From positions 2,668,971 through 2,707,654 of the forward strand of contig JAVSMU010000001.1 of NCBI GenBank assembly GCA_032027045.1: DNA of 38,684 nucleotides, in the 5' to 3' direction. The translations under genes and the position numbers were made by a program. The notes below the pieces were generated by a model. That model worked only from the letters and a program-made list of their open reading frames with translations. It was not told the DNA's origin and searched no databases. Within the stretch, counting starts at the first letter, position 1, and each line of letters begins with the position of its first letter. This document shows, piece by piece, positions 19,264 through 37,049 of the stretch. Source of the stretch: Truepera sp. GTDB lineage: Bacteria > Deinococcota > Deinococci > Deinococcales > Trueperaceae.

Positions 19264-20250
19264 TCAAGCCCCCGCCTCGTCGCCAACCACCAACCGCGGC
19301 GCGGCGTGCAGGTACTGGCTCACCCGGCGCTTGGCGGCTATGTCCTGGAACACGCGCTCGACCTGCTCGGCGCTCAGGCCCAACGCGCCTGCCACCACAT
19401 CGGCCCCGATACCGTGGTCGACGGCGTACAGGCACAGGTCCATCTCGTCGTACGGCAGCGAGAAGTAGAACTCCTCCTGGCTCTGCGGCATCGAATACGT
19501 GTCCGTGGTGGGCGGGCGGGAGCGGATCTCGGCGGGCACGCCCAGCGCCTCCGCCAGTTGGTAGACCTGTGACTTGTAGAGGTGGGCTATGGGCTTGATG
19601 TCCGCGGCGCCGTCGCCGTTCTTCACGAAGAAGCCCTGGTCGTACTCGAGCCTGTTCGGCGTCCCGAGCACGGCGAAGTTGAGCCTGTCGGCGTGATAGT
19701 ACTCGAGCATCTTGCGCGTGCGCTGCTTGAAGTTGGTGGCCGCAACGACCTGCAGGTACTCCTCGAGGGGCAGGCGCTCCTTCACGACCTTGCCGTCCGG
19801 CGCCTGGGCGACGACCGAGAAGATCCTGAAGGCGTCCGAGTCGACGACGCTGGGGAGAACGATCTTCGCCTTCCAGCCGGGGCCGTAATCCGGGATCACG
19901 CGCGCGAAGGCCTCGTCGCGGCGGCGGTAGCACCCGACGGCCTCCAGTATCGGAGTTATCACCTCGAGGACGGTCTCTATGCCGCTGCTCTTCGCTGCCA
20001 GGCGGCTGAGCATCAACGTATCGGGCGAGGAATCCGCCTCGGGCATGAGTACCCCCAGCACGTTGCCGGGGCCGAACGCCCTCGCCGCCAGGGCGGCCAC
20101 CACGCTCGAGTCGATGCCTCCCGACAGCCCGAGCACGCCCCCCTTACGCCGGAACGCCCTCACTTCGCGGCGCATGCCGGCGGCTATCTCCTCGATGGTG
20201 GCCTCGGGGTCTGCCAGCTTCAGGACCTGCGGGCCGAAGGCCTCGCTCAT
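19264..20250 (-). CDS. NadE-like N-type ATP pyrophosphatase (atypical NAD synthase family member)
   Basis: A 328-residue member of the NAD synthase superfamily. The PP-loop SGGIDSS (residues 43-49) adenylates a carboxylate using ATP before amidation. GTPNRLEYDQGFFVKNGDG and DIKPIAHLYKSQVYQLA match NadE, but the end of the active-site region reads RPPTTDTYSMPQSQEEFYF instead of the usual DLxDxRxDE-like segment. There is an extra stretch of about 50 residues (roughly 110-160) not found in short NadE enzymes, which are about 275 residues. No glutaminase domain is present. The ATG at 20250 has AGGTGG 8 nt upstream. It is the last gene of the AsnB-ligase-ACP-NadE unit, 12 nt after the ACP, suggesting amide formation on a carrier- or glycan-bound acid rather than NAD synthesis. 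True NadE function is not excluded. Confidence 0.8.
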   Translation of the reverse strand: MSEAFGPQVLKLADPEATIEEIAAGMRREVRAFRRKGGVLGLSGGIDSSVVAALAARAFGPGNVLGVLMPEADSSPDTLMLSRLAAKSSGIETVLEVITPILEAVGCYRRRDEAFARVIPDYGPGWKAKIVLPSVVDSDAFRIFSVVAQAPDGKVVKERLPLEEYLQVVAATNFKQRTRKMLEYYHADRLNFAVLGTPNRLEYDQGFFVKNGDGAADIKPIAHLYKSQVYQLAEALGVPAEIRSRPPTTDTYSMPQSQEEFYFSLPYDEMDLCLYAVDHGIGADVVAGALGLSAEQVERVFQDIAAKRRVSQYLHAAPRLVVGDEAGA

Positions 20251-20262
20251 GTGTGACACCAC

Positions 20263-20523
20263 CTATGCCAAGCGCCGGGAGACGTAACCGACGATGCGTG
20301 AGACGCTGTCGAGGTTCTCGGGCAACGTGTCCTCGTCGGGGATGCTCACTTCGAAGTGCTGCTCGATGAACATGATCAGTTCGAGTACGCCCATGGAATC
20401 GAGCACGCCGGCTTGGGTGAGGGACTCGTCCGCCTCGAGGCCGGCGCCGCCGTCATCGAGGATGAAGTTGTCGGCCAGGAACTGGCGAACGTCCTTGTCT
20501 ATCGTGGCCACGTCGGCTGCCAT
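20263..20523 (-). CDS. Stand-alone acyl carrier protein (accessory, polysaccharide locus)
   Basis: An 86-residue ACP distinct from the fab-operon one. The phosphopantetheine site is Ser43 in AGVLDSMGVLELIMFIEQHF; the LDSMG form is common in carrier proteins of secondary metabolism and exopolysaccharide loci, where fatty-acid ACPs have GADSLD. Residues after it (EVSIPDEDTLPENLDSV) form the usual helix III region. ATG 20523 has AAGGAG 10 nt upstream; a GTG at 20544 would extend it by 7 residues. It lies between an AMP-dependent acyl ligase and the NadE-like gene, which suggests the ligase charges it. Confidence 0.88.
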   Translation of the reverse strand: MAADVATIDKDVRQFLADNFILDDGGAGLEADESLTQAGVLDSMGVLELIMFIEQHFEVSIPDEDTLPENLDSVSRIVGYVSRRLA

Positions 20524-20586
20524 GCTGTCACTGCTCCTTGTCACGACCGAAGCTTCGCATACGAGCCTCAGCGGGTAAATAGGCTT

Positions 20587-22185
20587 TCACCGGCCCTCGG
20601 CGGCCGCTTCCTCCACCAGCGTCTTCTTGCGCACCTTGCCGGAAGCGGTCTTGGGTAGGTCGGGAACGAACCGCACGTCGCGGGGCACCATGAAGCCTTC
20701 CAGTCGCGCCATGGCCTCACGTTTGAACGCCTGCTCGGTGTAAGTGACCTCCGCGTGCAGTACGACGTATGCACGCACGGCCTGCCCAAGCAGCTCGTCG
20801 GTCACGCCGATGACTGCCACCTCGCGCACGCCGGGCACGGCGGCCAGCGCGTTCTCGACTTCCACCGGGCTGACCTTCTCGCCGCGGCTCTTGATGATGT
20901 CGTCGGAACGGCCCATGAAGTAGAGGAAGCCGTCCTCGTCGGTGCGGAAGAAGTCGTGGGTGCACAACACCCGTTCACCAGGGTACTTGCCGGGCTTGAG
21001 CATGTGGGCGGTCTCGGCGGGCAGGTTCCAGTAGCCCAGCATCACGTGCGGTCCCCTCACGTAGAGGGTGCCGGTGGTGCCGGCCGCCACGGGCAAACCG
21101 TCATCTCCCAGCAAGTAAGTCTCGGTCCCGGGGATGGCCTTACCCACCGACGACGGCTTGCTTAGCACCAGCTCGGGCTCGAGGTAGCAGACCCGCTTGC
21201 ACTCGGTGAGGCCGTACATCTTGTAGACGAGGGCGCCGGGGCTCATCTCCAGCAGGCCCGGCACGTAGTCGTCGGGCAGGTGCGCCGCCGTGTTCGTGAA
21301 GCGCCTCACGCTGGGCATGGAGACGGGCGAGTTCCGGTGGAGCGATAGCAGGGTGGCGAACACGGTGGGCACGCCCGGGAAGACGGTCACGCCCTCCTCC
21401 ACCACGCGCTTGACGATGGCTGCCGGGAAGGCGAACGTGCGCTCGAGCACGAGCGTGGCGCCCAGGTGCACCGCCATGAGGGCCTGGTAGAGGCCGTAGT
21501 CGAAGGCCAGGGGCAGCAGGTTCAGTATCCGGTCCGAGGCGTCGAGCCGCAGGTACTCGACGAGGCTCCCCTGGGCGAACACCATGTTCTGGTGGCTCAG
21601 CATGACGCCCTTGGGGTTGCCGGTGCTGCCCGAGGTGTAGACGAGCGCGGCGAGGTCCAACGGGATAGTCCCCGCCGCGGCCACGTCCGTGCTCGTCGCC
21701 GCTGCGAGGCTCATCTCAGCGAAGGCCGGAGCCGCGCCGGCCGCGGTAGTCACGCCACCGACGGCCTCGTCGGCATGTACGAGCGCCTCGAGGCTCGGGA
21801 GGGCGGTCGCCTCGTTGGTCATGAGATCAGCCACCATGCGCGCGAGGCGTCCCTGGCTTAGAACGGCCGCCGCACCCGAGTCGGCCAGCACGTAATGCAG
21901 CTTGTCTTCCTTCGTCTGGGGGTTGACCACGATGAACGCAGCGCCCGCAAACAGCGCGCCGTAGATGCCCACCACCGTGGCGACGGAGTTCTCCAAGAAG
22001 ATAGCCACGCGGTCTCCGCGCTTCACGCCGACGCTTTGAATCAGGGCCGCGAAGCGCAGGGCTCGCGCTTGCAGTTCGGCGTACGTCACGCGCTCGTCCG
22101 CAGTGATCACGGCGACCTTGTCTTGGTACTTGGCCGCGCTCAGCGTCAGGCTGTCATGCAGCAGCCTTGGGTACCTCGGTAGCAT
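20587..22185 (-). CDS. AMP-dependent acyl-CoA/acyl-ACP ligase
   Basis: ANL-superfamily adenylating enzyme, 532 residues, activating a carboxylic acid as acyl-AMP and passing it to a thiol. The P-loop-like YTSGSTGNPKGVMLSH spans residues 183-198, GLTE follows as MYGLTECKR, then the hinge region FYMGRSDDIIKSRGEKVSP, and the catalytic Lys near the C-terminus (KTASGKVRKKTL, Lys517). Substrate residues cannot be read off. The ATG at 22185 has a GGAAGGG-type Shine-Dalgarno upstream. It lies 63 bp before the accessory ACP, which is its likely acceptor; related ligase-ACP pairs occur in exosortase-associated exopolysaccharide loci, though no exosortase is seen here. Confidence 0.9.
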   Translation of the reverse strand: MLPRYPRLLHDSLTLSAAKYQDKVAVITADERVTYAELQARALRFAALIQSVGVKRGDRVAIFLENSVATVVGIYGALFAGAAFIVVNPQTKEDKLHYVLADSGAAAVLSQGRLARMVADLMTNEATALPSLEALVHADEAVGGVTTAAGAAPAFAEMSLAAATSTDVAAAGTIPLDLAALVYTSGSTGNPKGVMLSHQNMVFAQGSLVEYLRLDASDRILNLLPLAFDYGLYQALMAVHLGATLVLERTFAFPAAIVKRVVEEGVTVFPGVPTVFATLLSLHRNSPVSMPSVRRFTNTAAHLPDDYVPGLLEMSPGALVYKMYGLTECKRVCYLEPELVLSKPSSVGKAIPGTETYLLGDDGLPVAAGTTGTLYVRGPHVMLGYWNLPAETAHMLKPGKYPGERVLCTHDFFRTDEDGFLYFMGRSDDIIKSRGEKVSPVEVENALAAVPGVREVAVIGVTDELLGQAVRAYVVLHAEVTYTEQAFKREAMARLEGFMVPRDVRFVPDLPKTASGKVRKKTLVEEAAAEGR

Positions 22186-22262
22186 CCAACCCGCCCTTCC
22201 GTTCGACGTGAACCCCACCTCGCCGGCGGCCGCTCACGCCCAAGAAGTCTATCCGCGGGGCC

Positions 22263-24266
22263 TCACGGCACACTTACTCCGCCGCCCCGGAGGACTTCCT
22301 TGCCCACCACTTCGCGGGTAGCGACCGCGGCCGGGGCGAGCGTCGGGTTGGTGATGAACTGCTCGTCGAGGAGCATCGTCGACAGCACCCCGACCAATCC
22401 CATCTCGTCGCTCTCGCTGAAGCCCACGTCGGCGTAGCGCACGGCCTTCTCGGCCAGCCTGGCGACATTTGCGGGGTTGAACAACCCGCTGGCCTCCACG
22501 CGCTTAGGCGCGAGTAGCTCCGCCACGTAGGCGGGCGCCCCTTCGCCGAAGAAGGCTCCTAGAATCGGCGCTCTGTACGGGCGCTTGGGGCGCCTGTTGA
22601 TCTCGTCGGGCAGGACCTTGGCCAGCGACTTGCGCAGCAGATACTTCTCACGTATGTCGCGAAGGCGCAGGCGTTCGGGCAACGAAGCGGCGAACTCGAC
22701 CACGTTCATGTCGAGGAACGGGAACCGTCCCTCCACCGAGTTGGCCATGAGCATGCGGTCGCCCTGCGAGTGGAGGAGGAAGCCCGTGAGGAAAGTAGCT
22801 ATCTCGAGGTACTGGGCCTGGCCCAGGGGCCCCATGCTCGCGAACTCCGGCGGCAGGCGGTCTATTACGCGCTCCTCCGGGTCGCCCACCGTAGTCCTGG
22901 TGGCGAGTGTGTCCGCGCTGAGAAAGCGCAGGTTGCGTGCCGTGGTCCGGAAACGCGGCCGGTGGCTGTAGAGCGGGTCGTCCAGTTCGAGCATGCCGGC
23001 CTTGAAGAACTCGGCCATGAACCCGCCGCCGCGCTGCAGGTCGCGCGAGAGGTAGGGGTAGAGCTTGCCGAGCAGCCTGGGGCGCAACGTGGAACCGGGC
23101 TGCCGCGCCCAGAAGCGCCGCACCATGGCCTCCTGGAAGATGTTGTAGCCGCCGAAGAGCTCGTCCGCGCCCTCGCCCGTGAGCACGACCTTGAAGCCGG
23201 CGCTGCGCACGAAGCGCGAGAGCAGCAGGAGCGGGCCGGGTGCCGTTCGGAGCATGGGTTTCTCGGCGTGGAGGATGACTTCCGGCAGCACGGCGGCCAC
23301 GTCGGCGTCGGAGACCACTATGCGCCGCAGGTTCACACCAAGCTCGGCCGCCATGCGGTCCTGGTAGGGCGACTCGTCGAAGCGCGGGTCCTCGAAAGCA
23401 ACGCTGAAGGCCTCCAGCGGACCGCGGGTGTGACGGCGCGCCAGCGCGGTGGTGGCGCTGGAGTCCAGACCGCCACTCAAGTAAACGCCCACGGGCACGT
23501 CGGCGCGGAGCCTTATCCTCGTGGCGTCGTCCAGCACGCCGAGCAGCTCCTCTTGCAGCTCCTCCATGGGCGCCGAGCGGGTGCCCTCGCGCGGGCCGAA
23601 GCGGATGTCCCACCAGCGCACCGCCTCTTCGGCGCCACGGGGCCCAACCCAGAGGAAGTGACCGGCGGGCAACTCACGCACGCCCACGAACGCGCTGCGG
23701 TCGGGCTGAACCGCCCAGATGGTGAACGTCTCGACCAGCGCGAACGGATCGATGCGCCGTTCGGCGCGAGGGTGCCGCAACAGGGCCTTGGCCTCGGAGG
23801 CGAACACGAAGTCGCCCCCGTAGTCGGCGAGGAACAGAGGCCTGATCCCGAAGCGGTCGCGGGCCAGGAACAAGCGCTTGGTCTCCCTGTCGTAAACGGC
23901 CAGTGCGAACTCACCGTTCAGCTTGTCGAGGAACCCAGGACCCCACTCTTCGAAGGCGTGGACCAAGACCTCAGTATCCGAGCGCGTGCGGAAGCGGTGC
24001 CCGAGCTGCTCGAGCTCCGCCATGAGTTCGGGGTAGTTGTAGATCTCACCGTTCTGCATTCCCCAGTAGCGACCGTCCTCGTTCGAGAGGGGTTGGTCGC
24101 CGCCTGACAGGTCGATGATGGACAGTCGGGTGTTGACCATGCCGAAGGGTCCGTCGAGGTAGAGGCCGACACCGTCCGGTCCGCGGTGCGCCAGCTCGCC
24201 GGCCATGGCCAGCAGCAGGTCGCGCTCAGACCGTTGGCTCGTGTAAATGCCGGCGATTCCACACAT
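22263..24266 (-). CDS. AsnB-type glutamine amidotransferase/asparagine synthase homologue 1
   Basis: A 667-residue two-domain protein. The N-terminal class II glutaminase begins MCGIAGIYTSQ with the nucleophile Cys2 and contains ELAHRGPDGVG and MQNGEIYNYPEL. The synthetase domain has the intact PP-loop VYLSGGLDSSATTALA and VLTGEGADELFGGYNIF. Glutamine-derived ammonia would be passed to an acyl-AMP intermediate. Its place as first gene of a unit with an acyl ligase, ACP and a NadE-like enzyme, inside a polysaccharide locus, argues for amidation of a glycan or acyl substituent rather than free asparagine synthesis. ATG 24266 is chosen since Cys must follow Met; AGGA is only 3 nt upstream, so a GTG at 24281 is sometimes an automatic choice. 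Confidence 0.9.
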   Translation of the reverse strand: MCGIAGIYTSQRSERDLLLAMAGELAHRGPDGVGLYLDGPFGMVNTRLSIIDLSGGDQPLSNEDGRYWGMQNGEIYNYPELMAELEQLGHRFRTRSDTEVLVHAFEEWGPGFLDKLNGEFALAVYDRETKRLFLARDRFGIRPLFLADYGGDFVFASEAKALLRHPRAERRIDPFALVETFTIWAVQPDRSAFVGVRELPAGHFLWVGPRGAEEAVRWWDIRFGPREGTRSAPMEELQEELLGVLDDATRIRLRADVPVGVYLSGGLDSSATTALARRHTRGPLEAFSVAFEDPRFDESPYQDRMAAELGVNLRRIVVSDADVAAVLPEVILHAEKPMLRTAPGPLLLLSRFVRSAGFKVVLTGEGADELFGGYNIFQEAMVRRFWARQPGSTLRPRLLGKLYPYLSRDLQRGGGFMAEFFKAGMLELDDPLYSHRPRFRTTARNLRFLSADTLATRTTVGDPEERVIDRLPPEFASMGPLGQAQYLEIATFLTGFLLHSQGDRMLMANSVEGRFPFLDMNVVEFAASLPERLRLRDIREKYLLRKSLAKVLPDEINRRPKRPYRAPILGAFFGEGAPAYVAELLAPKRVEASGLFNPANVARLAEKAVRYADVGFSESDEMGLVGVLSTMLLDEQFITNPTLAPAAVATREVVGKEVLRGGGVSVP

Positions 24267-24324
24267 GTGTCCTGCGATCACTCCTCGGCAATAAGGTCAT
24301 GAGAGCCGTCAAGGCCTCGGGCGG

Positions 24325-24435: not shown

Positions 24436-26295
24436 ATGTGTGGAATCAGCGGCGCGTGGCAAGCTCATGAACCAGGGATGAGGGAAGCCCTGATGGAGTC
24501 GCTTACCGCGATGATTCACCGGGGCCCCGACGCCGAGGGGATGCATATCGAGCCGGGTGTGGCCCTCGGTATCCGCCGCCTCGCCATTATCGATGTTGCA
24601 AGCGGCCAGCAGCCCATCTGGAACGAGACCAACGACGTTGGCGTCGTGTTCAACGGCGAGATCTACAACTACGTCGAGCTGTTGCAGGAGTGCCGAGATA
24701 GGGGTCACTCGGTTAGGACACGGTCGGACACCGAGGCCATCGTCCACCTGTACGAGGAGGACCCGGAAGGCTTCGTAGGGCGCCTCCGTGGGATGTTCGC
24801 CATCGCCATCTTCGACAGGCGCCGGCAACGGCTCGTTCTCGCGCGCGACCGCTTCGGGAAGAAACCTCTCCACTACGCGCTTACGCCAGGCAACGGACTG
24901 CTCTTCGCCTCAGAGCTGAAGGGGCTGCTCCCTCTGTTGAGGTCACAAGGTCTGCGGCCGGAGATCGACCCGCAGGCGATCTACGACTTCCTCTCACTTG
25001 GTTCCATCCCCCAGCCATCGACCGTCTACGCGGGTGTCGCAGCGGTTCCGCCTGGCCACCTCCTCATCGCAGATCGCGACGGCCATAAGCTGAAGTCCTA
25101 CTGGCAGCCGGTGTTCGGACCCAAGTTCAGTGGCACTTACGAAGAAGCACAAGCGGCCGTGCGTCGGCAGATAGAGGATGCGGTGCGCATACGGCTCCGC
25201 AGCGATGTGCCCCTCGGTTGCTTTCTCTCCGCCGGAGTCGACAGCAGCATCGTCACTTATGAAGCAGCCAAGCTCGTCGGTGACCAGCTCCAGACCTTCA
25301 CGGTGAGTTCCGAGGACCCGGACCTCGATGAGTCGGGCGTCGCAAGCCGCACAGCCAAGCAGCTTGGGGTGAATAACACCGTCTTACATCTCGACATCGA
25401 CCCGGTCCGCGACCTCGGCATCCTCGTCAAGGCGTACGACCAGCCGTTCGCCGACGCAAGCGCCATTCCGAGCCTGGAAGTATCACGCGCGGCGCGTGAG
25501 CAAGTGACCGTCGTGCTCAACGGGGATGGTGGAGACGAGCTCTTTGGAGGTTATCGGCGCCATGTGGCAATCGAGACCATGGCCGGTTTCGCTTGGCTCC
25601 CGCGCCCGCTCACCGCCGGTCTTTCCGCCCTCTTGGCACCGGAAAAGCGGTCCCGGCGTTCGCCGTTAGGACTGGTGGGGCGGATGCTCCGGGGCCTTGC
25701 GCTCCCACCCGAGGAGCGCTATCTCGTGTTCACGTCGGACATGCTGCTGGACGCCGACAAGCGCGAGACCTGGCATGGCGAGGCGCGAGCCACCGAGAAC
25801 CTCGTTCTCGACAAACTAGACCGCCACCTCGGCGCCCTCGACATGCAAACGAACGCCGAGCTCCACCTGAACCTCCTAAGTAGCTTGCTGGTGAAGATGG
25901 ATATAGCTACCTCAGCGAACTCGCTCGAAGGCCGGTCTCCTCTCCTCGACAACGAGCTCGCAGACTTCGTTTTCACCCTGCCGCCCAACTTCCGTGTTAG
26001 GAATCGCCGTCCGAAGGCCATACTTCGTGACGCGTACGCAGACGTCCTCTCCCAGGAAGTGGTCCGGGGCAAGAAGCGCGGGTTCGAGGTGCCACTGGCC
26101 AACTGGTTAGAAGGTTCCTGGCGTCAGCTCCTCAATGACACTCTTGGCGCTAGTGACGCCCGCACACTGGGCTTTGTCGACAGGTCGCTCATTCTGCGAG
26201 TGCTCGACCCGAACTCCTTCGGCGACCGCAACAAGGCCTACATCAGTTATGCGTTTCTGGTGCTCGAGTTATGGCTCAGGAACGTGAAGCCATGA
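24436..26295 (+). CDS. AsnB-type glutamine amidotransferase/asparagine synthase homologue 2
   Basis: A 619-residue homologue of the divergent asnB1 but clearly different. Cys2 (MCGISGAW) and the glutaminase motifs MIHRGPDAEG and FNGEIYNYVEL are intact. The PP-loop reads CFLSAGVDSSIV (residues 262-273), with Ala for the first Gly of the usual SGGxDSS. The downstream LNGDGGDELFGGYRRH and SLEGRSPLLDNELADF are conserved, and the C-terminus KKRGFEVPLANWLEGSWR is as in AsnB proteins of exopolysaccharide loci. It overlaps the next glycosyltransferase (ATGA), so it is probably part of glycan assembly, for example amidating a uronic acid. Activity with the altered loop is untested. Confidence 0.9.
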   Translation: MCGISGAWQAHEPGMREALMESLTAMIHRGPDAEGMHIEPGVALGIRRLAIIDVASGQQPIWNETNDVGVVFNGEIYNYVELLQECRDRGHSVRTRSDTEAIVHLYEEDPEGFVGRLRGMFAIAIFDRRRQRLVLARDRFGKKPLHYALTPGNGLLFASELKGLLPLLRSQGLRPEIDPQAIYDFLSLGSIPQPSTVYAGVAAVPPGHLLIADRDGHKLKSYWQPVFGPKFSGTYEEAQAAVRRQIEDAVRIRLRSDVPLGCFLSAGVDSSIVTYEAAKLVGDQLQTFTVSSEDPDLDESGVASRTAKQLGVNNTVLHLDIDPVRDLGILVKAYDQPFADASAIPSLEVSRAAREQVTVVLNGDGGDELFGGYRRHVAIETMAGFAWLPRPLTAGLSALLAPEKRSRRSPLGLVGRMLRGLALPPEERYLVFTSDMLLDADKRETWHGEARATENLVLDKLDRHLGALDMQTNAELHLNLLSSLLVKMDIATSANSLEGRSPLLDNELADFVFTLPPNFRVRNRRPKAILRDAYADVLSQEVVRGKKRGFEVPLANWLEGSWRQLLNDTLGASDARTLGFVDRSLILRVLDPNSFGDRNKAYISYAFLVLELWLRNVKP

Positions 26296-27413
26296 AGGTC
26301 ATGGTCGTGGGCAACATCGTCCAGTCGTTGGTCAACTTCAGAGGGCCCCTACTTCACGCGATGGTGGAACTCGGCCACGAGGTAGTGGCCGTGGCTCCGG
26401 AGGAGGACCTCCACTACGAGGAGGAGCTTAGCCGCCTGGGCGTCAAGTACCGCTGGGTGCCACTCGACCGGGCAGGCTTCAACCCAGCCTCGGATCTACG
26501 CTTCATGTGCGCCCTGCGGCGGCTGATGATCGAGGAACGGCCTGACGTCTTCCTCGGGTATACGATCAAGCCGGTCATCTACGGGAATCTTGGGGCTCGC
26601 CTCGCCGGCGTGCCCGCCCGTGGCGCCCTGATCACGGGCCTTGGCTATGCCTTCGGCGACGACGGACTGAAGCAGCGGCTGGTCGGCCTTGTCGCGAGCG
26701 TGCTTTACGCTTTGGCCCTGGCAGGGGCGAGAGTGGTCTTCTTCCAGAACCCTGACGACCGCGGCGAGTTCATACGCCGGCGCCTCGTCGATCCGTCACT
26801 GGCCACCGTCGTGGCTGGGTCCGGCGTGGATCTGGACCGGTTCACGAGCAGCGAGCCTCCACCCCCACCGCCTGTCTTCCTTTTGATCGCGCGGCTGATT
26901 AGGGAGAAGGGCATCGAGGAGTTCGTCGAAGCAGCGCGAGACCTGAAGGAGCGCTATCCGGAAGCACGCTTCCAGCTGCTCGGTCCGACGGACAAGAACC
27001 CGACAGCCGTCTCACCATCGTGGATAGACGAGCAGCAGCGTGCAGGCGTGATCGAGTACATGGGAGTGACGAATGACGTTCGACCCTTCCTCCACGCCGC
27101 CTCGGTTTTCGTCCTTCCTTCTTACCGTGAAGGCACCCCGCGCACGGTCCTGGAGGCGCTCGCCACCGGACGACCCATAGTCACGACCGACGCTCCCGGG
27201 TGCCGCGAGACCGTGGTGGACGGCGTCAACGGCTTCCTCGTCATACCTAGGGATGTCCGGTCGCTGACGGAAGCGATGGAGAAGTTCATTCTCGACCCAG
27301 AACTCGTACCCAGGATGGGCCTCGCGGGCCTCGAACTAGCGCGCACCAGGTACGACGTGAGGTTCGTGAACGCAGACATGCTACATCACCTGGGGCTGCA
27401 GCCAAAGGGCTGA
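26292..27413 (+). CDS. Glycosyltransferase family 4 (GT-B fold), PglA-like
   Basis: A 373-residue cytoplasmic glycosyltransferase for repeat-unit assembly. The N-terminus MKVMVVGNIVQSLVNFRGPLLHAM and the PDVFLGYTIKPVIYGNLGARLAGVP segment are typical of the WbpT/PglA/CapM-like group. The C-terminal GT4 donor site is seen as SYREGTPRTVLEALATGRPIVTTDAPGCRETV, with the E-x7-E spacing. The donor is likely a UDP-HexNAc, but this is family-based inference. ATG 26292 overlaps the asnB2 stop (ATGA); the earlier ATG 26271 would lie inside asnB2. Confidence 0.9.
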   Translation: MKVMVVGNIVQSLVNFRGPLLHAMVELGHEVVAVAPEEDLHYEEELSRLGVKYRWVPLDRAGFNPASDLRFMCALRRLMIEERPDVFLGYTIKPVIYGNLGARLAGVPARGALITGLGYAFGDDGLKQRLVGLVASVLYALALAGARVVFFQNPDDRGEFIRRRLVDPSLATVVAGSGVDLDRFTSSEPPPPPPVFLLIARLIREKGIEEFVEAARDLKERYPEARFQLLGPTDKNPTAVSPSWIDEQQRAGVIEYMGVTNDVRPFLHAASVFVLPSYREGTPRTVLEALATGRPIVTTDAPGCRETVVDGVNGFLVIPRDVRSLTEAMEKFILDPELVPRMGLAGLELARTRYDVRFVNADMLHHLGLQPKG

Positions 27414-28861: not shown

Positions 28862-28906
28862 ATGGATGTCAGCTCCTTAAGTGACGGTGGGTCGATGGCC
28901 CCGTGA
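28862..28906 (+). CDS. Putative 14-residue leader peptide overlapping the Wzz-like start
   Basis: ATG 28862 opens a short frame encoding MDVSSLSDGGSMAP that ends at TGA 28904-28906, overlapping the GTG of the next gene by 3 nt (GTGA). A TATGCT -10-like element (28847-28852) ends 9 nt before the ATG. The following gene has only a weak Shine-Dalgarno, so this frame could deliver ribosomes to it. Too short for statistical support; inferred from layout only. Confidence 0.3.
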   Translation: MDVSSLSDGGSMAP

Positions 28907-30522
28907 CCGAACAACAGGTTGTAAAGATCTCGTTCAGAGAAGCGTTCCACTTCTTGGTTCGTGGCTTCCTTCCGGCCCTGGCCGTGGCCGTGGCAGCAGG
29001 TCTGTTGGCCTACTTCGCGACCCGTGACCCAGTGCCGATCTACCGCTCGACCGCAATCCTCCTTGCAACTCGCCCGGCGACCGGCTACTCGGGCTCGGTC
29101 AACATCCTCGAGCCCACCCAGGTCGATCCGGACGTTTACCGCTCGGCAATCGTCCAGGGCGGCCTATTGGAGGCGGCGCTGGCCAACGTGTTCGGTGAGA
29201 CGCCGTCTATTCAACAGTTGACGGAATGGCGGCGGCGCGTCCGGGTCCGAGTCGACGAGAACCTCATCTCCGGCCTGGTCCGTATCGAGGTTGACGACAA
29301 GGACCCGGAAGTTGCCGCCCACGTCGCGAATGCACTGTCGGACTCCCTCCTGGCATGGGATCGGGACAGGGTAACCAGGAACCTACAAGCCACGGCAACG
29401 GCCCTGAGTCGTTCGGTCGCGTTGCTAGGGGCGCAGATCGCCACCGCGGAGCAGGCGGGTGACGACGCAACGGCCCAGGTGTTGAAGGCAACGAGGGATC
29501 AGCGTCTAGGTCAGTTGAGGGCAGCAGACGCCCTCAACCTCTCGGCCGTCGTGCTGGGGCTCCTCGAACCCTTCAAGTCCGCAGTCGTCGAGCCCGATCC
29601 CGTGAACGACAAGGCCCTCTTCATGACGGTGATCGCCTTCGCACTATTCTTCGTCCTCTCCTACGTCGTCATGTTCTTCGCCGGGATCACCGATCCGAGG
29701 ATCAGGAACACGGATGATCTGACGAAGGCCACGGGCATCGAACCCATGACCACACTCCCCGACGAGAGGCGGGGGCCTGCGTTCCTCGAGGCCCTGGCAC
29801 GCTTGGCGCTACCGCTGCCGACGACGGCGGCGCTTACCGCCCCCACAAGTGGCACCTCCCCTGCTGCGGGACAGGTAATCGTAGTGACGTCACCCACCAC
29901 CGTCCGTGAGCGCTCCTTGTTGGCGAGGCATCTGGCCATGGCATACGCGAGGGCGGGATGGCGCGTCTTGCTGGTGGACGCGGATCTGAAAGAAGGTTTC
30001 ATCTCGGCCTCGCTGTCGGCTGCGCCGCTGACGACGTCGTTGGTCGAGCTCCTGCGAGGCGTCGAAGACGCCGGCCCGGGCTCCATTGCGAACGGCTCGG
30101 GCACGCATTTCGATCTGATCCCTGCCGGTACGGTGCCGATCGACGGAGGCGCACTGTTGTTGGGCCGCAGGATCTCGTGGCTCATCGGCCGGTGGCGCTC
30201 GAAGTACGACGTGGTGGTCATCGACTCCACGGCGCTAGCGGCGTCTGCAGGGACCCTATCAATGGCCCGCGACGCAGATGCCGTAGTACTGGTGGCCAAA
30301 GCGAACAGCACGCGAATCGCGGCAGCGCAGGAAGCGGTCAGAGAACTCAAGCGCGCCGGGTCCAGCTTCATCGGAACCGTCCTGGCCGGAGTGGGCGCCC
30401 CGCTGCGAGGCTCGAAGGCGCCGAGACGGGGGGCCATGACTGCCAGCCCCGACATGAAGTCGACGCAAGTGACTCATGCGGCTCGCGCCAAGGTCGTGCA
30501 GCGGCCGAGGCGCGGAGCTTAA
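28903..30522 (+). CDS. Wzz-like chain-length protein fused to a degenerate BY-kinase domain
   Basis: A 539-residue inner-membrane protein of the Wzz/Wzc type that would control polysaccharide chain length and export. Helix 1 is about residues 21-39 and helix 2 about 238-261, with a periplasmic loop between them (Wzz domain, IYRSTAILLATRP onward). The cytoplasmic part has an intact Walker A' VLLVDADL (355-362) and a Walker B-like YDVVVIDS (435-442). Walker A, however, reads TSPTTVRERSLLARHLA at 329-345 where Wzc/CapB have GEGKS/T, so the invariant Lys is Arg and both Gly are lost. The C-terminal tail (500-539) contains no tyrosine and is basic. It is probably a pseudokinase. The GTG start follows an in-frame stop by seven codons, so there is no upstream alternative. 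Confidence 0.85.
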   Translation: MTEQQVVKISFREAFHFLVRGFLPALAVAVAAGLLAYFATRDPVPIYRSTAILLATRPATGYSGSVNILEPTQVDPDVYRSAIVQGGLLEAALANVFGETPSIQQLTEWRRRVRVRVDENLISGLVRIEVDDKDPEVAAHVANALSDSLLAWDRDRVTRNLQATATALSRSVALLGAQIATAEQAGDDATAQVLKATRDQRLGQLRAADALNLSAVVLGLLEPFKSAVVEPDPVNDKALFMTVIAFALFFVLSYVVMFFAGITDPRIRNTDDLTKATGIEPMTTLPDERRGPAFLEALARLALPLPTTAALTAPTSGTSPAAGQVIVVTSPTTVRERSLLARHLAMAYARAGWRVLLVDADLKEGFISASLSAAPLTTSLVELLRGVEDAGPGSIANGSGTHFDLIPAGTVPIDGGALLLGRRISWLIGRWRSKYDVVVIDSTALAASAGTLSMARDADAVVLVAKANSTRIAAAQEAVRELKRAGSSFIGTVLAGVGAPLRGSKAPRRGAMTASPDMKSTQVTHAARAKVVQRPRRGA

Positions 30523-30557: not shown

Positions 30558-30599
30558 ACAACGTGGGCTAGACAACCTGGGCTAGACAACCTGGGCTAA
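30558..30599. repeat. 14-bp tandem repeat (three copies) reaching into the wzx stop codon
   Basis: ACAAC(G/C)(T)GGGCTAG repeats three times between the Wzz-like gene and wzx. The last copy contains the wzx stop on the minus strand, so the stop-bearing segment has been duplicated, as at 19065-19125. Confidence 0.75.
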
Positions 30600-32014
30600 C
30601 TGCCGTATGAGGCCAGCTTGTGGAAGAAGCGGCGGTCGATGATCAGCAGGCACAGGGCATACAAGGTGACGCCGATGGCTACCTGAGCGAGAAGGGCGAG
30701 CGGACCCCGCCAGCCGCTGATCAGCACGAGGCCGGCTCCCATGGCCGCGGCAGCCAGGAAGATCGGGAAGGCCTCCTTGTCGGGTAGCGGCACCACGAAC
30801 TCTCTACGGCCGAACCCCCAGGAGAGCAGCATTGCCACGAGTTGAGCCGCCAACGTGGCGTACACCGCCCCCAGAATGCCCACCCTGGGAATCAGCAACA
30901 CGTTCAAGCCAACGTTGAGCGACGCGGTGATGATCACGATCCAAACCTGAATGATCGTGCTCCCGCTCAGTTGGAAGGACAGGTCGAGGTAGAAGGACTT
31001 CAGCCCGGCGACGAGTGCAGCGATGGCGATTCCAGGAATGATGACGGCCGCGGCGGCTCTGAACTCCGCGCCTACCATCACCGCCGCGATGTTCTGTGCA
31101 AGGATCGAGAGGCCGATGGCCGCCGGCAACCCGATGACCAACAATAAACGCAGCGTCCAGCGCAACATCTGTTGCGCGGCTGCCGAGCCTTCCTTCTCGA
31201 ACGCCGACACTATCAGGGGATAGGCCGCCAGGTTGACGATGGTGAGCAGCATGCCGAGCGTGAACTGCGCAAGGTCGTAACCCACGGCGTACTGCCCAGC
31301 GGCCGCTTGGTCGATGAAGCCGGCAAGCATGAACCGATCGGAGCTGCTGATCACGAACGCGAGGGCGCCCGTTGCCGCCAAAGGCAGACCGTAGCGCGCG
31401 AGCTGCCGAGCGAGTTCAGGGTCGAACCTTTTCCGTGCGGCCGCCAGCCATTCTGTTGCGCCACCAAGGGCTATCAGGGGGAACAGCATCGAAGCTATCA
31501 GACCGATAAGTAGCCCGATTGCGCCCATGCCGGCCGCAGCGAGGCCGGCGCCTATCAGGAGACCGATGAGCGCCTTGGAACCGGAATAGAAGCCGTAGCG
31601 CATGGGCGAAAGCACGGATCTCTCACGTTCCGTGGTGATCTCGAATGCTCCTTGCACCACGAATATGCCGGCCCCGAGAAGGACGAGCTGCCGCGTGAAA
31701 TCGTTAGCGATGAACAACCAGGCCGAGGCTATGGTCAGGGCGCTCACGCCTAGAGCGAGCGCCAAGTACATGCGAAACAAAGTCGCTAGGGTGGTCGTGG
31801 CGTCGTTGCCGGCCTTGGGCAGGAAGCGAAGTAGAGTCAGGCGCAACCAACGTAGGAGTACAGCGTCAGCAGCGCCAACCGCAGCGATCGTAAGGGTGTA
31901 AGCGCCGTACTGATCCGGATTGAGCAACCGAGTGTAGATGGCTATGGCCAAGAAGTTGAGGACCCCTGGCAAGCCCCGCGCCACCAGGTAATGAACGCCG
32001 TGACGAAGGAGCAT
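30596..32014 (-). CDS. Wzx-type polysaccharide flippase (MOP superfamily)
   Basis: A 472-residue multi-pass membrane protein that would flip the undecaprenyl-linked repeat unit to the outside. The N-terminus HGVHYLVARGLPGVLNFLAIAIYTRLLNPDQYGAYTL is the standard Wzx/RfbX opening, and about 12-14 hydrophobic helices follow. The start is ATG 32014; a TAGGCT -10 element 7 nt upstream supports it, whereas the longer reading from 32068 would begin upstream of that element. It is convergent with the Wzz-like gene and divergent from a glycosyltransferase. Confidence 0.9.
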   Translation of the reverse strand: MLLRHGVHYLVARGLPGVLNFLAIAIYTRLLNPDQYGAYTLTIAAVGAADAVLLRWLRLTLLRFLPKAGNDATTTLATLFRMYLALALGVSALTIASAWLFIANDFTRQLVLLGAGIFVVQGAFEITTERERSVLSPMRYGFYSGSKALIGLLIGAGLAAAGMGAIGLLIGLIASMLFPLIALGGATEWLAAARKRFDPELARQLARYGLPLAATGALAFVISSSDRFMLAGFIDQAAAGQYAVGYDLAQFTLGMLLTIVNLAAYPLIVSAFEKEGSAAAQQMLRWTLRLLLVIGLPAAIGLSILAQNIAAVMVGAEFRAAAAVIIPGIAIAALVAGLKSFYLDLSFQLSGSTIIQVWIVIITASLNVGLNVLLIPRVGILGAVYATLAAQLVAMLLSWGFGRREFVVPLPDKEAFPIFLAAAAMGAGLVLISGWRGPLALLAQVAIGVTLYALCLLIIDRRFFHKLASYGS

Positions 32015-32021
32015 GCCGCAC

Positions 32022-32027
32022 AGCCTA
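32022..32027 (-). promoter_or_regulatory. -10 element of a putative leaderless promoter for wzx
   Basis: TAGGCT (minus strand) ends 7 nt before the ATG at 32014. No -35 consensus. Confidence 0.4.
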
Positions 32028-32089
32028 CTACTCGGTCCCGCACTGACGTCGCGCCAGCCCGGCCCCACAGCGGATCCTGAGGCTCAGGG

Positions 32090-32101: not shown

Positions 32102-33211
32102 GTGGACGACGATTCGATGCGGCCGCTACGAGTGGCCCTGCTGCTGCCAAGCCTCACGGGAGGCGGAGCGGAGCGCGTGACTCTCAACCTGATCGAGGGG
32201 CTCGTCGAATTGGGCTGCGAAGTAGACCTGGTGCTTTTCACGGCAACCGGGGACTTGGTGGGCGCGGTTCCTGAAGGCGCTAATGTGGTGGATTTGCGGT
32301 GTGAGAGGGCGTTGCGTTCTCCGCTGCCCATTGCGCGCTACCTGAGAAAGCGTAGGCCGGCCGTGATGGTAGCGAACATGGGGCACACGAACCTGGTGGC
32401 GTTGCTTGCAAGGTCGCTAGCCCGCGTGCCTACGCGACTCGTGTTGACGGAACACTCGACCGTCTCAGCCACCGCGGCCGGCCTCAAAGACCGCGCCTAC
32501 CGCCTCCTCGCAAAGATGGCCTATCCCTCCGCCGAGTCGATAGTGGCGGTGTCCAAGGGAGTTGCAGAGAGCCTCGTCGCCAACCTTGGGCTTGCCGAAG
32601 GCACCATTGACGTGATCTACAACCCCGTCCTCGCGAAACGTTACTGGCAGGCGCTCGAAGTTCCCGCAGAGCATCCGTGGTTTGGAGCGGACCAGCCGCC
32701 CGTGGTCTTGGGGGCCGGAAGGCTGGTGGCTCCGAAGGACTTTCCGACCCTCATCAAGGCTTTTGCCCGCGTACGTGAGACGCGCGAGGCGCGCCTCATG
32801 ATCATAGGCGAGGGCCCGGAACGCTCAGCGCTCGAGTCACTGATTCGCGAACAGGGTCTGGGCGGTTCCGTGTTGCTCCCCGGGTTCGCCAGCAACCCGG
32901 TGGCGCTGATGGCCGGCGCCTCGGCCTTCGTACTTTCGTCCGTGCGCGAGGGATTGCCGACCGTGCTAATCGAGGCCCTGGCTTCGGGAGTTCCGGTGGT
33001 GTCCACAGACTGCGAGAGCGGGCCGCGCGAGATCCTGCAAGGGGGGCGCCTCGGGCGACTGGTTCCCGTAGGGGACATCGGGGCGCTCGCGACAGCCATC
33101 GCGGAAGCCCTGGACAGCGCCCATGAGAAGGTAGACCCCGAGTTCCTGGAAGTCTACACGCCGATCTCTGCCGCAAGACAATACCTTGATGCGGCCGGCT
33201 ACCATGGGTAG
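32102..33211 (+). CDS. Glycosyltransferase family 4
   Basis: A 369-residue GT-B enzyme. The N-terminal LLLPSLTGGGAERVTLNLIEGL is the acceptor-domain loop found in many GT4 proteins, and the C-terminal SSVREGLPTVLIEALASGVPVVSTDCESGPREIL gives the donor site; CESGPREIL is typical of the GalNAc/Gal-transferring PglJ/PglH-like group. A second conserved Lys is in GAGRLVAPKDFPTLIKAF. It starts at GTG 32102, with MRPLRVALL a possible later start at 32117. Its end overlaps the polymerase gene, so they form one unit. Confidence 0.92.
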   Translation: MDDDSMRPLRVALLLPSLTGGGAERVTLNLIEGLVELGCEVDLVLFTATGDLVGAVPEGANVVDLRCERALRSPLPIARYLRKRRPAVMVANMGHTNLVALLARSLARVPTRLVLTEHSTVSATAAGLKDRAYRLLAKMAYPSAESIVAVSKGVAESLVANLGLAEGTIDVIYNPVLAKRYWQALEVPAEHPWFGADQPPVVLGAGRLVAPKDFPTLIKAFARVRETREARLMIIGEGPERSALESLIREQGLGGSVLLPGFASNPVALMAGASAFVLSSVREGLPTVLIEALASGVPVVSTDCESGPREILQGGRLGRLVPVGDIGALATAIAEALDSAHEKVDPEFLEVYTPISAARQYLDAAGYHG

Positions 33212-34454
33212 CGTTACGCAACGTCTGGCTTTTCTCAGCGTATTGCTCTTCGTCCTGGTACTGCCGATCGAGAACGTGTTCGTACTGCCGACGGTAGGCA
33301 GTCTCAGTCGATTGATCGGGCTGGTGATGGTCGTAAGTGCCATACCCACGTTCCTGACGCGAGGTTCATTCGCTGTTCGGCGCCAAAGCCTCGTCGTCGT
33401 GCTCCTTGGCCTCTTCGTTCTGTGGACTTTCGCCAGCCTGCTTTGGAGCGTTGAAGCCTCGAGTACTCTCAACTATGCCTCTACGTTCACGCAGATTCTA
33501 CTATTCGTCATCGTCATCTGGCAGGTGAGTACGTATCCTGCGGCTGTACAAGCCATTCAGCAGGCTTACGTCATAGGCTGCACACTGGCTGGGCTAGACG
33601 GGATCAGGAATTTCATCTTGGACAACGAGGCGGTCTTCCGGCGCTTCGCCGTTTCCAATACGGATCCAAACGACTACGCGCTCGCGCTCGCCCTAGGCAT
33701 ACCGATGGCATGGCAATTGTTCGCCACGGGCCGCGGCTGGTGGCGCTTCCTCAACCTCCTTTTCATACCTGTGGCCCTGGGAATGATAGTGCTTTCCGCG
33801 TCGCGCGGCGGAACCATCGCGGCCCTGGTCGCGCTACTGGTGGTGCCTCTGGGGCTAAGAACGCTAGACCGGTTCGGACGGCGCGCAGTCCTTAGCTTGG
33901 TGGTCGCCAGCGCTCTGGCCGTTCCCGTGTTCTGGAACGACATAGCAGCCGTCGTGGGCAGCAACATCGAGCGGATCGGCACGATCGGGACGGAGATTAC
34001 CTCAGGAACCCTGAACGAAAGAGAGGTGCTCTGGGCGGCCGGCATGGAGGCCCTGTCGAGGCGGCCTATCATCGGCGTCGGGGGCGGTGCATTCCCGGCG
34101 GCCATCGAGAAAGTGTCCGGCCTGCGCTCGCCTGCCCACAACACGTTCATCTCCGTTGCTGTCGAGACCGGCACCGTCGGCTTCGTGCTTTTCGTCGCCA
34201 TCCTCGCGGTGGCCATTACCCCGCACCTACGTGCCTTCAACGCGCGCTCGATGCCCAGTATCGTGCTGTTCGCTACTTTGCTGATTGGAATCGTTCCTCT
34301 GACCTGGGAGTTCCGGAAGCCGACATGGCTGGTCATCGCGCTTCTATTGTTGACGCGCGGCGTTCTGGTCGGTCGCTTCACCGCCCCCGGATCCGCTGCC
34401 GCCCCGGTTAGTGATGGCAGCGCCCAGGAAGTCGCGGTGGAGCGACGGCCCTGA
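33189..34454 (+). CDS. O-antigen polymerase/ligase family membrane protein (Wzy_C)
   Basis: A 421-residue polytopic protein with about ten or more hydrophobic segments and a large loop (roughly residues 235-320) containing the Wzy_C signature: REVLWAAGMEALSRRPIIGVGGGAF, then SPAHNTFISVAVETGTVGFVLF. Members either polymerise repeat units (Wzy) or ligate O-antigen to lipid A (WaaL); with Wzx and a Wzz-like protein present, polymerase is more likely. The start is ATG 33189 or ATG 33204, both overlapping the preceding gene; I list the first. Confidence 0.88.
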   Translation: MRPATMGSVTQRLAFLSVLLFVLVLPIENVFVLPTVGSLSRLIGLVMVVSAIPTFLTRGSFAVRRQSLVVVLLGLFVLWTFASLLWSVEASSTLNYASTFTQILLFVIVIWQVSTYPAAVQAIQQAYVIGCTLAGLDGIRNFILDNEAVFRRFAVSNTDPNDYALALALGIPMAWQLFATGRGWWRFLNLLFIPVALGMIVLSASRGGTIAALVALLVVPLGLRTLDRFGRRAVLSLVVASALAVPVFWNDIAAVVGSNIERIGTIGTEITSGTLNEREVLWAAGMEALSRRPIIGVGGGAFPAAIEKVSGLRSPAHNTFISVAVETGTVGFVLFVAILAVAITPHLRAFNARSMPSIVLFATLLIGIVPLTWEFRKPTWLVIALLLLTRGVLVGRFTAPGSAAAPVSDGSAQEVAVERRP

Positions 34455-35072
34455 CTTGAACGTAGGCCAGTTGGGAAATCACGGATGGTCAGTGCCGGAC
34501 GCGAATACGGGGGCGCGGAAAACGGTCCATGGACACCCACGTTCCCGCGGTTTTGGGGGAAACCCACCTTGCCACCCGGAGCGCGGGTCACGCCGGACTT
34601 CCGGAATGCTGACCAACTGCAGTGGCCAGGCCCGTGCAAGTCGGTCAGACCCACTACACTTGTGCTGTTTGTCACTTCTGGCTCCGCTCGACCTTCTGGC
34701 TGAGAGCACCCGGAGATGTTCGCGGATGAGATTTGTGGTGCTGCACGCAGGAAACGCTTAACCGTCGCGAGGATCGGAGCAGGCCCGCGCGCAGCCTTCG
34801 AAGACCGAGACCCGCAACCGAACCCTCACCTCCGGATTCTCACTCCCAGTAGATTGGCTTCTCATGATGGCTGGATAGGCTGGCCCCCAAGACTTGACCG
34901 AGAGGTCAGCTTGACGTCCTTGGCAGTGCTGAGGGCAAACAGCGTCTGATGGGCGCAAGGCGGCGATGAAACGCTGAATCCCGAGATGGGCATCATGGGA
35001 AGCGTGGAGCCAGTGATGCAACCGGCCCTAATTCGAAGATGGTTGCTTCGGTAAAATCAGGAGTTGATTCCG
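34455..35072. other. 618-bp gap with no convincing gene
   Basis: No open frame here has recognisable similarity. Points noted: a dyad TGACC-GAGA-GGTCA at 34895-34908 of operator size, and TAAAAT at 35052-35057 just before the lipoprotein gene. The segment 34870-35030 could be a decayed gene or element end, but I cannot name it. GC content is lower than in the left of the window. Confidence 0.5.
35052..35057 (+). promoter_or_regulatory. Possible -10 element of the lipoprotein gene
   Basis: TAAAAT lies 15 nt before the GTG start at 35073; a CAGGAG Shine-Dalgarno (35058-35063) sits in between, so initiation just after the -10 would shorten the leader to a few bases. No -35 match. Confidence 0.3.
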
Positions 35073-37049
35073 GTGAAGATTTCCCGAGTTTCGCGATTGG
35101 GGAATTCTAGCTCGAACACGGAGCAGCCAATACGTCGAGGTATCCCAATTTCACTAGTACTGTTGGCTGTCGCGTTCGTACTCGCTTCATGTACACAAGA
35201 CTTGTCTGCGACAAACGGCCGTGGCGGCCTAGAAACTACGGCCTGGTCGTGGGTTGCCGTTGGTTATAGCGATGCAGAAATCGCCGGTGGCCAAGCGCCC
35301 ATTCAGGTCCAAGCAACGAGCGAGGGCGCGGTAGAAGACATCTCGATCACCGCCTCTGGGCATGACATCTGGAACACGAGAGACGAGTTCGTCTACTACT
35401 ACACCAAACTCGAGGCCGACGGCTCGCTATCGGTCAGGCTCAGCTCTTTCGATCCCGCCAACCCGTGGAGCAAAGCCGGCATCATGATACGGAAGAACCT
35501 GGAAGACGATGCTCCCAATGCACTGCTGCACATAAGCGGTTCAAATGGCTCAGTGCTTCAAACCAGAGATAGTAGTGGTGCGTCCACGAGGGTCGAGAAC
35601 TCCAGTTCCGCGACGAAGCCTGGCTCATTCATGCGGCTCACCCGAGCTGGTGATGATCTCATCGCAGAACTGTCCACAGACGGAACGGCGTGGAGTGAAC
35701 TGGGTCGCGTAACGCTGAACCTAGATGGGCCAGTACTGATAGGACTGGCTGTAACCGCCAACCCTGAGACTGAGGGTGAGTTGCCGAAGGTAAGAGCCGA
35801 GTTCTCTGACCTGGCTTACATGCCGGAGAAATCAGTGGCAGAGCCGAGCGATCCCACACCACCAACTCAACCTACGGAGCCCACCGAGCCCGCTCCTGCG
35901 CCCAGGCTTGAAGTGCCACAGGCCACCCTCTACGTGTCGCCATCGGGCTCGAGCAACAACTCGGGTAGGAGCGTTGACTCACCTCTCACGCTGGCAGCAG
36001 CAACCAGCATCGTTCGACCAGGCGACGTGGTCTACCTTCGGGGAGGCGTTTATCCGCTCAACCACTACTTCACTCGATCCGGAACGAGGACCGAACCAAT
36101 AATCTGGGCCTCATATCCGGGTGAGTGGGCCATCTTCGATGGCTCGGGCCTAAGGCGTGGGTCGGCCAGTGACAGGGTATGGGTACGAGACGCATCGTGG
36201 AACGTGTTCGCGAACTTCGAAGTGAGGAACAGCCCTCAACAGGGCGTACTTGTTCAGGGCTCGAACGACAATCGGTTCTATGGCCTGATCACGCACGGCA
36301 ACCATGGCTCGGGAATCCAGTTGATGAACTCCAGTCGCAACGTATTGGAGTACATCATCACTTACGATAACGTCGACGAGAAGAACCCCCGTGGAGAAGC
36401 CGGCGAGGACGCTGATGGCATCGGTATTTCGTCGGGGGACCGGAACATCATCCGCTATACGGTTACCTACTCCAACTCCGACGATGGCATAGACGCTTGG
36501 ACGTCCACCAATACACTAATTGACAGCGTAATCAGCTTCGATAACGGTCGCCTAGCTGAAGGTGATGGTAACGGGTTCAAATTGGGCGGGCCCGTTTCGT
36601 CGAGCAACACCATCGTTCAACGCTCGATAGCGTTCAACAACAGGTCTCGGGGTTTCACGAGTAACGGCGGAAGCAACGTGCAAATGCTGAACAACACGGC
36701 ATTTGGTAACGCCGGAGTGGCATTCCAAGGAGACAGGTCCACCACTTTGAGGAACAACCTGTCGGACACGACACGGTTAGATCTCGCTTCCGCCTCGTCG
36801 AGCCACAACAGTTGGGATATCGGCATTCGCAACCCCACGTTCGCAAGCACATCACCCTCGAATCCCGGATTCCTTGCCCTCGCCGAAAGTAGTCCGGCCA
36901 GGAATGCGGGCACCGATGTAGGGCTGCCCTTCTCAGGTTCAGCTCCAGACCTGGGTGCCCTTCAGTACCCCATGACGATTGCAGGGCTTGTGAACAACCC
37001 CTCCTTTGGAATGGCCGAACTGGCGGAAGTGATCTCCAACCTTAGGTAA
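35073..37049 (+). CDS. Secreted lipoprotein with right-handed parallel beta-helix (polysaccharide lyase-like)
   Basis: A 658-residue lipoprotein: basic N-region, hydrophobic stretch SLVLLAVAFVLASC with lipobox LASC (Cys40). Residues about 45-265 form a beta-rich jelly-roll-like domain (DIWNTRDEFVYYYTKLEADG, WSKAGIMIRKNL), as in DUF1349/laminin-G-like carbohydrate-binding modules. A Pro/Thr/Glu-rich linker (about 270-300) follows. Residues about 300-630 are a right-handed beta-helix: ATLYVSPSGSSNNSGRSVDSPLTL, GDVVYLRGGVYPL, DGIDAWTSTNTLIDSVISFDNG and GNGFKLGG match pectate-lyase family 9-like proteins. It may cleave or bind the glycan made by this locus. GTG 35073 has CAGGAG 9 nt upstream; TTG 35064 is possible. 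GC is distinctly lower than the neighbouring blocks. Confidence 0.85.
   Translation: MKISRVSRLGNSSSNTEQPIRRGIPISLVLLAVAFVLASCTQDLSATNGRGGLETTAWSWVAVGYSDAEIAGGQAPIQVQATSEGAVEDISITASGHDIWNTRDEFVYYYTKLEADGSLSVRLSSFDPANPWSKAGIMIRKNLEDDAPNALLHISGSNGSVLQTRDSSGASTRVENSSSATKPGSFMRLTRAGDDLIAELSTDGTAWSELGRVTLNLDGPVLIGLAVTANPETEGELPKVRAEFSDLAYMPEKSVAEPSDPTPPTQPTEPTEPAPAPRLEVPQATLYVSPSGSSNNSGRSVDSPLTLAAATSIVRPGDVVYLRGGVYPLNHYFTRSGTRTEPIIWASYPGEWAIFDGSGLRRGSASDRVWVRDASWNVFANFEVRNSPQQGVLVQGSNDNRFYGLITHGNHGSGIQLMNSSRNVLEYIITYDNVDEKNPRGEAGEDADGIGISSGDRNIIRYTVTYSNSDDGIDAWTSTNTLIDSVISFDNGRLAEGDGNGFKLGGPVSSSNTIVQRSIAFNNRSRGFTSNGGSNVQMLNNTAFGNAGVAFQGDRSTTLRNNLSDTTRLDLASASSSHNSWDIGIRNPTFASTSPSNPGFLALAESSPARNAGTDVGLPFSGSAPDLGALQYPMTIAGLVNNPSFGMAELAEVISNLR

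Follow-up and report, generated by a model that had tools for sequence, protein, structure and literature searches.

In the usual model, cycles of tyrosine phosphorylation make the Wzc ring assemble and come apart. Inactive members of the BY-kinase family have also been described. In PMC12004946, the stand-alone BY pseudokinase EcpK (EpsV) of Myxococcus xanthus is reported to be needed for exopolysaccharide, and the same paper names, after Cuthbertson et al., the fused PCP-2/BY-pseudokinase variants SMc01795, BCETI_6000729, Mlr8439 and VV1_2305, found in Sinorhizobium, Brucella, Mesorhizobium and Vibrio. Two inactive BY-kinases that coexist with an active paralogue, CapB1 in Staphylococcus aureus and PtkB in Bacillus subtilis, are described in PMC3795738. 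A literature search naming Deinococcus, with most subscription journals outside its coverage, returned no paper that matched at least 5 of its 6 terms.

The window, i.e. the whole stretch of 38,684 nucleotides analysed here, covers positions 2668971–2707654 of the single contig (2,919,400 bases) that makes up the genome of a Truepera species. It carries the gene of a 539-aa protein, named P0001 in our alignments (Table 1). Judged from its sequence, P0001 is likely a co-polymerase of an ordinary kind, fused to a kinase domain that is dead, and would work without phosphorylation. As both the ATP-binding loop and the target tyrosines are gone and the loss is shared with related bacteria, the domain is probably a structural part and not a kinase.

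Table 1. Features of the P0001 gene and of neighbouring genes, in window coordinates.
Feature	Position	Strand	Remarks and basis
Gene of fused PCP/BY-kinase-like protein	28903–30522	+	GTG start, 539 aa; ORF list, model and PDB matches
TM segment 1, ~residues 17–39	28951–29019	+	Hydropathy peak
Periplasmic Wzz-like domain, ~residues 40–236	29020–29610	+	Alignment of relatives; residues 205–497 align to Wzc 392–698
TM segment 2, ~residues 237–263	29611–29691	+	Hydropathy peak
BY-kinase-like domain, ~residues 321–498	29863–30396	+	TIGR01007; PDB BceF/Wzc/VpsO/CapB
Degenerate P-loop SPTTVRERSLL, residues 330–340	29890–29922	+	Sequence, alignment
Retained Walker A' LLVDADLKEG, Arg to Lys	29968–29997	+	Sequence, alignment
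Partly retained Walker B VVVIDSTAL, Asp kept	30211–30237	+	Sequence, alignment
Basic C-terminal tail without tyrosine; 10 K/R, 1 D/E in 41 residues	30397–30519	+	
Glycosyltransferase (Glycos_transf_1)	26271–27413	+	
DegT/DnrJ/EryC1 sugar aminotransferase, directly upstream of the P0001 gene	27632–28825	+	
Wzx-type flippase (Polysacc_synt_3); resembles HfsF, with a score under the cut-off of that model	30596–32068	-	
Glycosyltransferase (Glycos_transf_1)	32102–33211	+	
Wzy_C polymerase/ligase family protein	33186–34454	+	

The order TM segment, periplasmic domain, TM segment and BY-kinase domain in one chain is given by hydropathy and by alignment with Wzc and an intact paralogue from the same genome. 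A BY-kinase fold without catalytic Walker A is indicated by homology: P0001 matches TIGR01007 with E 8e-23 and 81 bits, below the curated cut-off of 108 bits, compared to 116 bits for the intact paralogue; some GK[ST]-bearing relatives also fall short of it, for example the one in genome G002 with 107 bits. Matched PDB chains include BceF (E 3e-15) and Wzc (E 1e-12), as well as VpsO, Etk and CapB, the Wzc match being stronger with a five-sequence profile than with P0001 alone. Pfam reported neither a Wzz nor an AAA domain on P0001 up to E 0.01, the Wzz model reaching 14.8 bits versus the 25.5 needed. Structure predictions from the single sequence gave a mean pLDDT of 43 for the full length and 37 for the domain alone, too low for a usable model.

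A preliminary description of this DNA had read the gene as a Wzz-type protein fused to a BY-kinase without Walker A, with a P-loop turned RERS-like, and both points are borne out: the P-loop position reads T-S-P-T-T-V-R-E-R-S. The loss of both P-loop glycines, also claimed there, needs one correction. It is the exchanges G to E and K to R that are telling; the first glycine is not diagnostic, being G in only 19 of the 50 relatives with GK[ST]. A P-loop elsewhere in the chain was looked for, and none of the patterns GK[ST], [AG]x4GK[ST] and Gx4GK occurs anywhere in the 539 residues. Walker A' and B were said to remain; this holds for the aspartates D359, D361 and D441, but the arginine of A' is replaced by lysine and DSPP has become DSTA. 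Tyrosines occur at residues 37, 47, 62, 79, 254, 348 and 435 only and the C-terminal tail has none, as had been stated.

The P0001 gene adjoins the gene of the Wzx-type flippase, and that of the Wzy_C protein lies 2.7 kb off; judged only by this gene neighbourhood and by that in some relatives, P0001 would belong to a Wzx/Wzy pathway. From about 24.4 kb of the window onward, third-position GC drops from ~0.9 to 0.64–0.79. Between the convergent ends of the P0001 and Wzx-type genes (window 30560–30600) a short tandem repeat (CTGGGCTAGACAAC-like) was seen by eye. Further along, at 35064–37049, a beta-helix (pectate-lyase-like) protein of 661 aa is encoded, with homologues in polysaccharide stretches of G001 and G004. 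On the minus strand at 19264–24281, genes for a NAD+ synthase-like protein, an acyl carrier protein, an AMP-forming acyl ligase and an asparagine-synthase-like protein stand side by side. The best model for the ligase is the exosortase-A-associated TIGR03098, below its cut-off, and the module recalls exosortase systems; a search of the genome for an exosortase (PF09721) gave no match. On the 3' side of the window (L064, 4658–11550), BREX-like genes (BrxA, BrxC-type wHTH, Eco57I-type methylase) lie within the polysaccharide region, near genes that look IS-like by eye.

A separate active BY-kinase and a phosphatase had been raised as relevant in the preliminary description. The genome holds one intact fused kinase (2753448–2754926), 54 kb downstream of the P0001 gene, with the P-loop TSAQPTEGKT, DSPP and a GYGYGYGYGYG tail. 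It is the only other match to P0001 in the genome at E 0.001 and is neighboured by a solute-binding-protein gene and a gene that by eye resembles cytochrome P450. Three genes of the LMW-phosphatase family lie elsewhere, and no CpsB/CapC phosphatase was found in this genome. Another Wzz-type protein is encoded by a 473-aa frame at 2285669. Since the genome gave no match to the OPX exporter (PF02563), either export differs from the Wzc pathway or such an exporter was missed.

Relatives were collected with profiles. A five-sequence profile matched in 29 of 39 Trueperaceae genomes and a nine-sequence profile in 60 of 111 genomes of the class. A scan of genome contigs with P0001 returned four matches, all weak and Wzz-like, from Burkholderiales and from a gammaproteobacterial MAG, three of which were part of the first alignment and omitted afterwards. 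In total, 79 proteins and fragments were aligned and 10 of these dropped before tree building (four ParA-like, six without a readable kinase part), which left 69 rows: 50 with GK[ST] and 19 without. L021 and L054, both without GK[ST], probably belong to a single gene. The 19 rows without the motif all come from the family of the window, while 25 of 25 fetched rows from other families of the order keep GK[ST]; matches in other families outside the fetched set comprise two fused proteins (G081:C40, G074:C182), the ParA-sized G071:C6 and several that end before the kinase part.

With the P-loop columns excluded, the 69-row tree (quick method) places P0001 in a group of 11 rows from 10 genomes, all without GK[ST], with an SH-aLRT of 100. 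In a reduced, more careful tree of 34 rows, which omits 15 family rows (L037, L038 and L054 among them) and 20 rows of other families, the eight clade rows included group with bootstrap 100 and SH-aLRT 100. The GK[ST] label needs five changes on the larger tree (three forced by starred branches) compared to 16.9 in shuffles, and two on the smaller one (one forced by starred branches), with a single change in 0 of 200 bootstrap trees. These counts suggest that GK[ST] was probably lost more than once in Trueperaceae. Further broken P-loops (GR, GV and others) outside the clade, in L040 (G008), L058 (G022), L012/L014/L052 and L042/L043/L055, are probably separate losses. P0001 itself sits on a long branch (1.36 and 1.53 in the two trees; the tree program warns of long branches, this one included), and its kinase-like domain is 28–33% identical to seven clade rows, so that it may be drifting beyond its relatives. 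The preliminary description had missed both this clade-wide loss and the already published proteins of such type; with a whole clade lacking GK[ST], the missing P-loop of P0001 is more than chance.

The genus mates place their clade genes differently from the window. Gene order was compared in G001, G002, G004 and G005 (19 kb), plus G031. In the first four, the clade gene stands directly beside a polysaccharide-deacetylase-like gene, followed by glycosyltransferase genes in G002, G004 and G005. Of the four stretches, three (G001, G002, G004) contain Wzy_C and two (G002, G004) also a Wzx-type gene; genes of asparagine-synthase-like or beta-helix type are seen in some. In the genome to which the window belongs, the deacetylase homologue (L069:9705–10868) lies beside L069:11004–11909, which is homologous to the gene flanking the clade gene on its opposite side in G005, and the space between the two (10868–11004) holds no co-polymerase gene; the P0001 gene is found ~39 kb upstream of the deacetylase homologue. 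The P0001 gene is thus not at the locus its genus mates use. In G031, the clade gene lies near homologues of window genes at 18147–22218.

At the position preceding the Walker lysine, E stands in 7 of 10 clade rows and D in one, with S and G in the remaining two; the G before T is found in L038. The lysine itself is kept in 7 of 10 rows, and the combination E-R occurs in P0001 only. That all 50 canonical rows have G and K there is true by definition, as GK[ST] served as the label. Tail tyrosines are absent from 11 of 15 rows without GK[ST] versus 1 of 45 rows with it (readable tails; the associated Fisher p ignores relatedness). Counted as independent pairs on starred branches, the joint loss of P-loop and tail amounts to only two pairs, too few for a test. 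The clearest exception is the clade member L054, with EK and three tail tyrosines, from which it appears that the P-loop may have changed before the tail was lost. All five clade members within the genus have basic tails (net +7 to +9); some canonical tails are equally basic. With GK[ST] lost clade-wide and tails that have few tyrosines or none where it is missing, the earlier assignment as a pseudokinase is well supported by sequence.

We consider P0001 to be a phosphorylation-independent inner-membrane co-polymerase of PCP-2 type in a Wzx/Wzy pathway, whose dead BY-kinase-like domain would be kept as a scaffold, and assign this reading a probability of about 0.62. It builds on four observations: P-loop and tail tyrosines are gone, GK[ST] is missing throughout the clade, the domain is under purifying selection in close relatives (see below), and Wzx/Wzy-type genes lie nearby. 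The cytoplasmic domain would no longer bind ATP or autophosphorylate. With an acid directly in front of the Walker lysine, phosphates should be repelled; in Ras-type GTPases, an exchange of Gly to Ala at the matching place leaves the protein nucleotide-free. Beneath the membrane, the dead domain would bring the P0001 protomers together in a ring, and this scaffold would hold the periplasmic domain in a state permitting chain extension by Wzy with no need for a cycle of tyrosine phosphorylation, P0001 presumably controlling chain length. Such control without phosphorylation, proposed in the preliminary description, is plausible given that 8 of 10 clade genomes are without an intact GK[ST] fused kinase and given the gene neighbours in relatives. 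The scaffold reading is weakened by the Walker A' and B aspartates, which are mostly kept and which a pure scaffold would not need; the intact kinase in the same genome, the long branch of P0001, the missing OPX match, the G before T in L038 and the three tail tyrosines of L054 also count against it.

The distribution of active fused kinases bears on an alternative in which the dead domain acts only together with an intact paralogue, inactive protomers in a mixed ring tuning the phosphorylation cycle. Among the 10 clade genomes, an intact fused kinase was found in G000 and G002 and a 334-aa remnant without P-loop start and domain end in G005; seven have no GK[ST] row. Of the seven clade genomes with at least 90% completeness, four are without such a row. 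The remnant, a truncated GK[ST] fused kinase, is located at L062 9017–10018, ~3.6 kb from the intact gene of the dead-kinase co-polymerase. Eight clade genomes (the seven and G005) contain, among the matches listed, none above the TIGR01007 cut-off; several clade genomes are incomplete drafts, which can miss genes. With the clade genes set aside, the best listed matches in these eight reach at most 58 bits, compared to 107 bits for the intact kinase of G002; we take them to be ParA/MinD/Mrp-type proteins. Mutual exclusion of dead clade and GK[ST] fused kinases was considered and not retained: with the remnant of G005 counted as GK[ST], the 39 family genomes comprise 3 with both, 7 with the dead form only, 15 with GK[ST] only and 14 with neither (Fisher p 0.29, not significant), and at a completeness of at least 90% the numbers are 3, 4, 11 and 9 (p 0.68).

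A mixed ring fits the window's genome with its EGKT paralogue and also G002, which has both forms, and interference of an inactive with an active BY-kinase was proposed for CapB1/CapB2, in parallel to PtkB/PtkA, in PMC3795738. Since an intact paralogue and three LMW-phosphatase-family genes are present, P0001 may interplay with the active kinase in this strain. As an explanation, a mixed ring appears unlikely, the seven genomes without a GK[ST] fused kinase and the mere remnant in G005 speaking against it.

The conservation of the domain can be set against a further possibility, that the kinase-like part is a decaying, functionless leftover and the periplasmic half does the work. In seven clade rows (excluding L021, L037 and L038, and L054, which is without the periplasmic part), the mean ratio of conservation between the kinase-like and periplasmic parts is 0.84 (21 pairs), the kinase-like part being less alike. 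This is the reverse of nine chosen canonical rows with a ratio of 1.20 (36 pairs), in which the kinase-like part is more alike than the periplasmic one. Both this finding and the long branch of P0001 would suit decay. However, the frame of P0001 is intact, codon-position GC is steady across the kinase-like domain, and the first Walker A' aspartate is kept in all 10 clade rows. For the pair L007/L009, dN/dS in the kinase-like part is 0.26 at dS 0.86, compared to 0.10 at dS 0.98 in the periplasmic part; for two more clade pairs, whose dS is higher and close to saturation, the values are 0.27 and 0.17, and for four canonical pairs 0.01–0.28. The kinase-like domain is therefore under purifying selection in these relatives, P0001 being too distant to be included, and a mere leftover seems quite improbable. 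It is very unlikely that nucleotide binding persists in some unusual form, with the nucleotide serving the domain as a ligand for structure or signalling: the retained Walker A' aspartates (10 of 10 and 8 of 10 clade rows), the Walker B aspartate (8 of 9 readable rows) and the lysine (7 of 10) would allow it, but an acid replaces the glycine before the lysine in 8 of 10 rows and P0001 is without the lysine as well.

Returning to the phosphorylation-independent scaffold, a wider scenario is possible but doubtful: Trueperaceae may have repeatedly rendered fused co-polymerase kinases dead, the acidic P-loop residue may keep one old clade nucleotide-free, and in several lineages the dead form may have replaced the active fused kinase, so that Wzx/Wzy assembly would proceed there without a tyrosine phosphorylation cycle while other family members keep one.

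In comparison with known systems, P0001 shares domain order and a homologous kinase-like domain with Wzc but has neither its Walker A nor its tyrosine-rich tail, and is shorter with 539 aa versus 720–738 in the PDB chains. In contrast to CapB1, which has CapA as a separate membrane partner, the loss in P0001 is clade-wide and lies in a fused protein. EcpK is similar, according to PMC12004946, in its BY-kinase fold without catalytic motifs, absent tail tyrosines, basic C-terminus and role in a Wzx/Wzy pathway; according to the same paper it is, however, stand-alone and keeps no Walker motif, whereas in P0001 the domain is fused to the PCP and retains Walker A' and B aspartates. HfsB of Caulobacter crescentus, likened here by its description in that paper, is also a degenerate BY-kinase partner of a PCP (HfsA) without tyrosine tail, stand-alone where P0001 is fused; the HfsF-like character of the window flippase is a further likeness to the Hfs system. 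Closest in architecture, again by the description there, are the fused variants of other phyla, with PCP and dead kinase in one chain as in P0001. The kind is thus already described by EcpK, HfsB and the fused variants, and what is new is the clade, the acidic P-loop and the repeated losses. A clade without P-loop and mostly without target tyrosines, in which some genomes have an active paralogue next to the dead one and others gave only the dead form, offers a natural comparison for roles of the kinase domain beyond catalysis. The idea itself has been published for EcpK and HfsB; the present case extends it to a further bacterial phylum and to a fused form, and supplies an evolutionary series.
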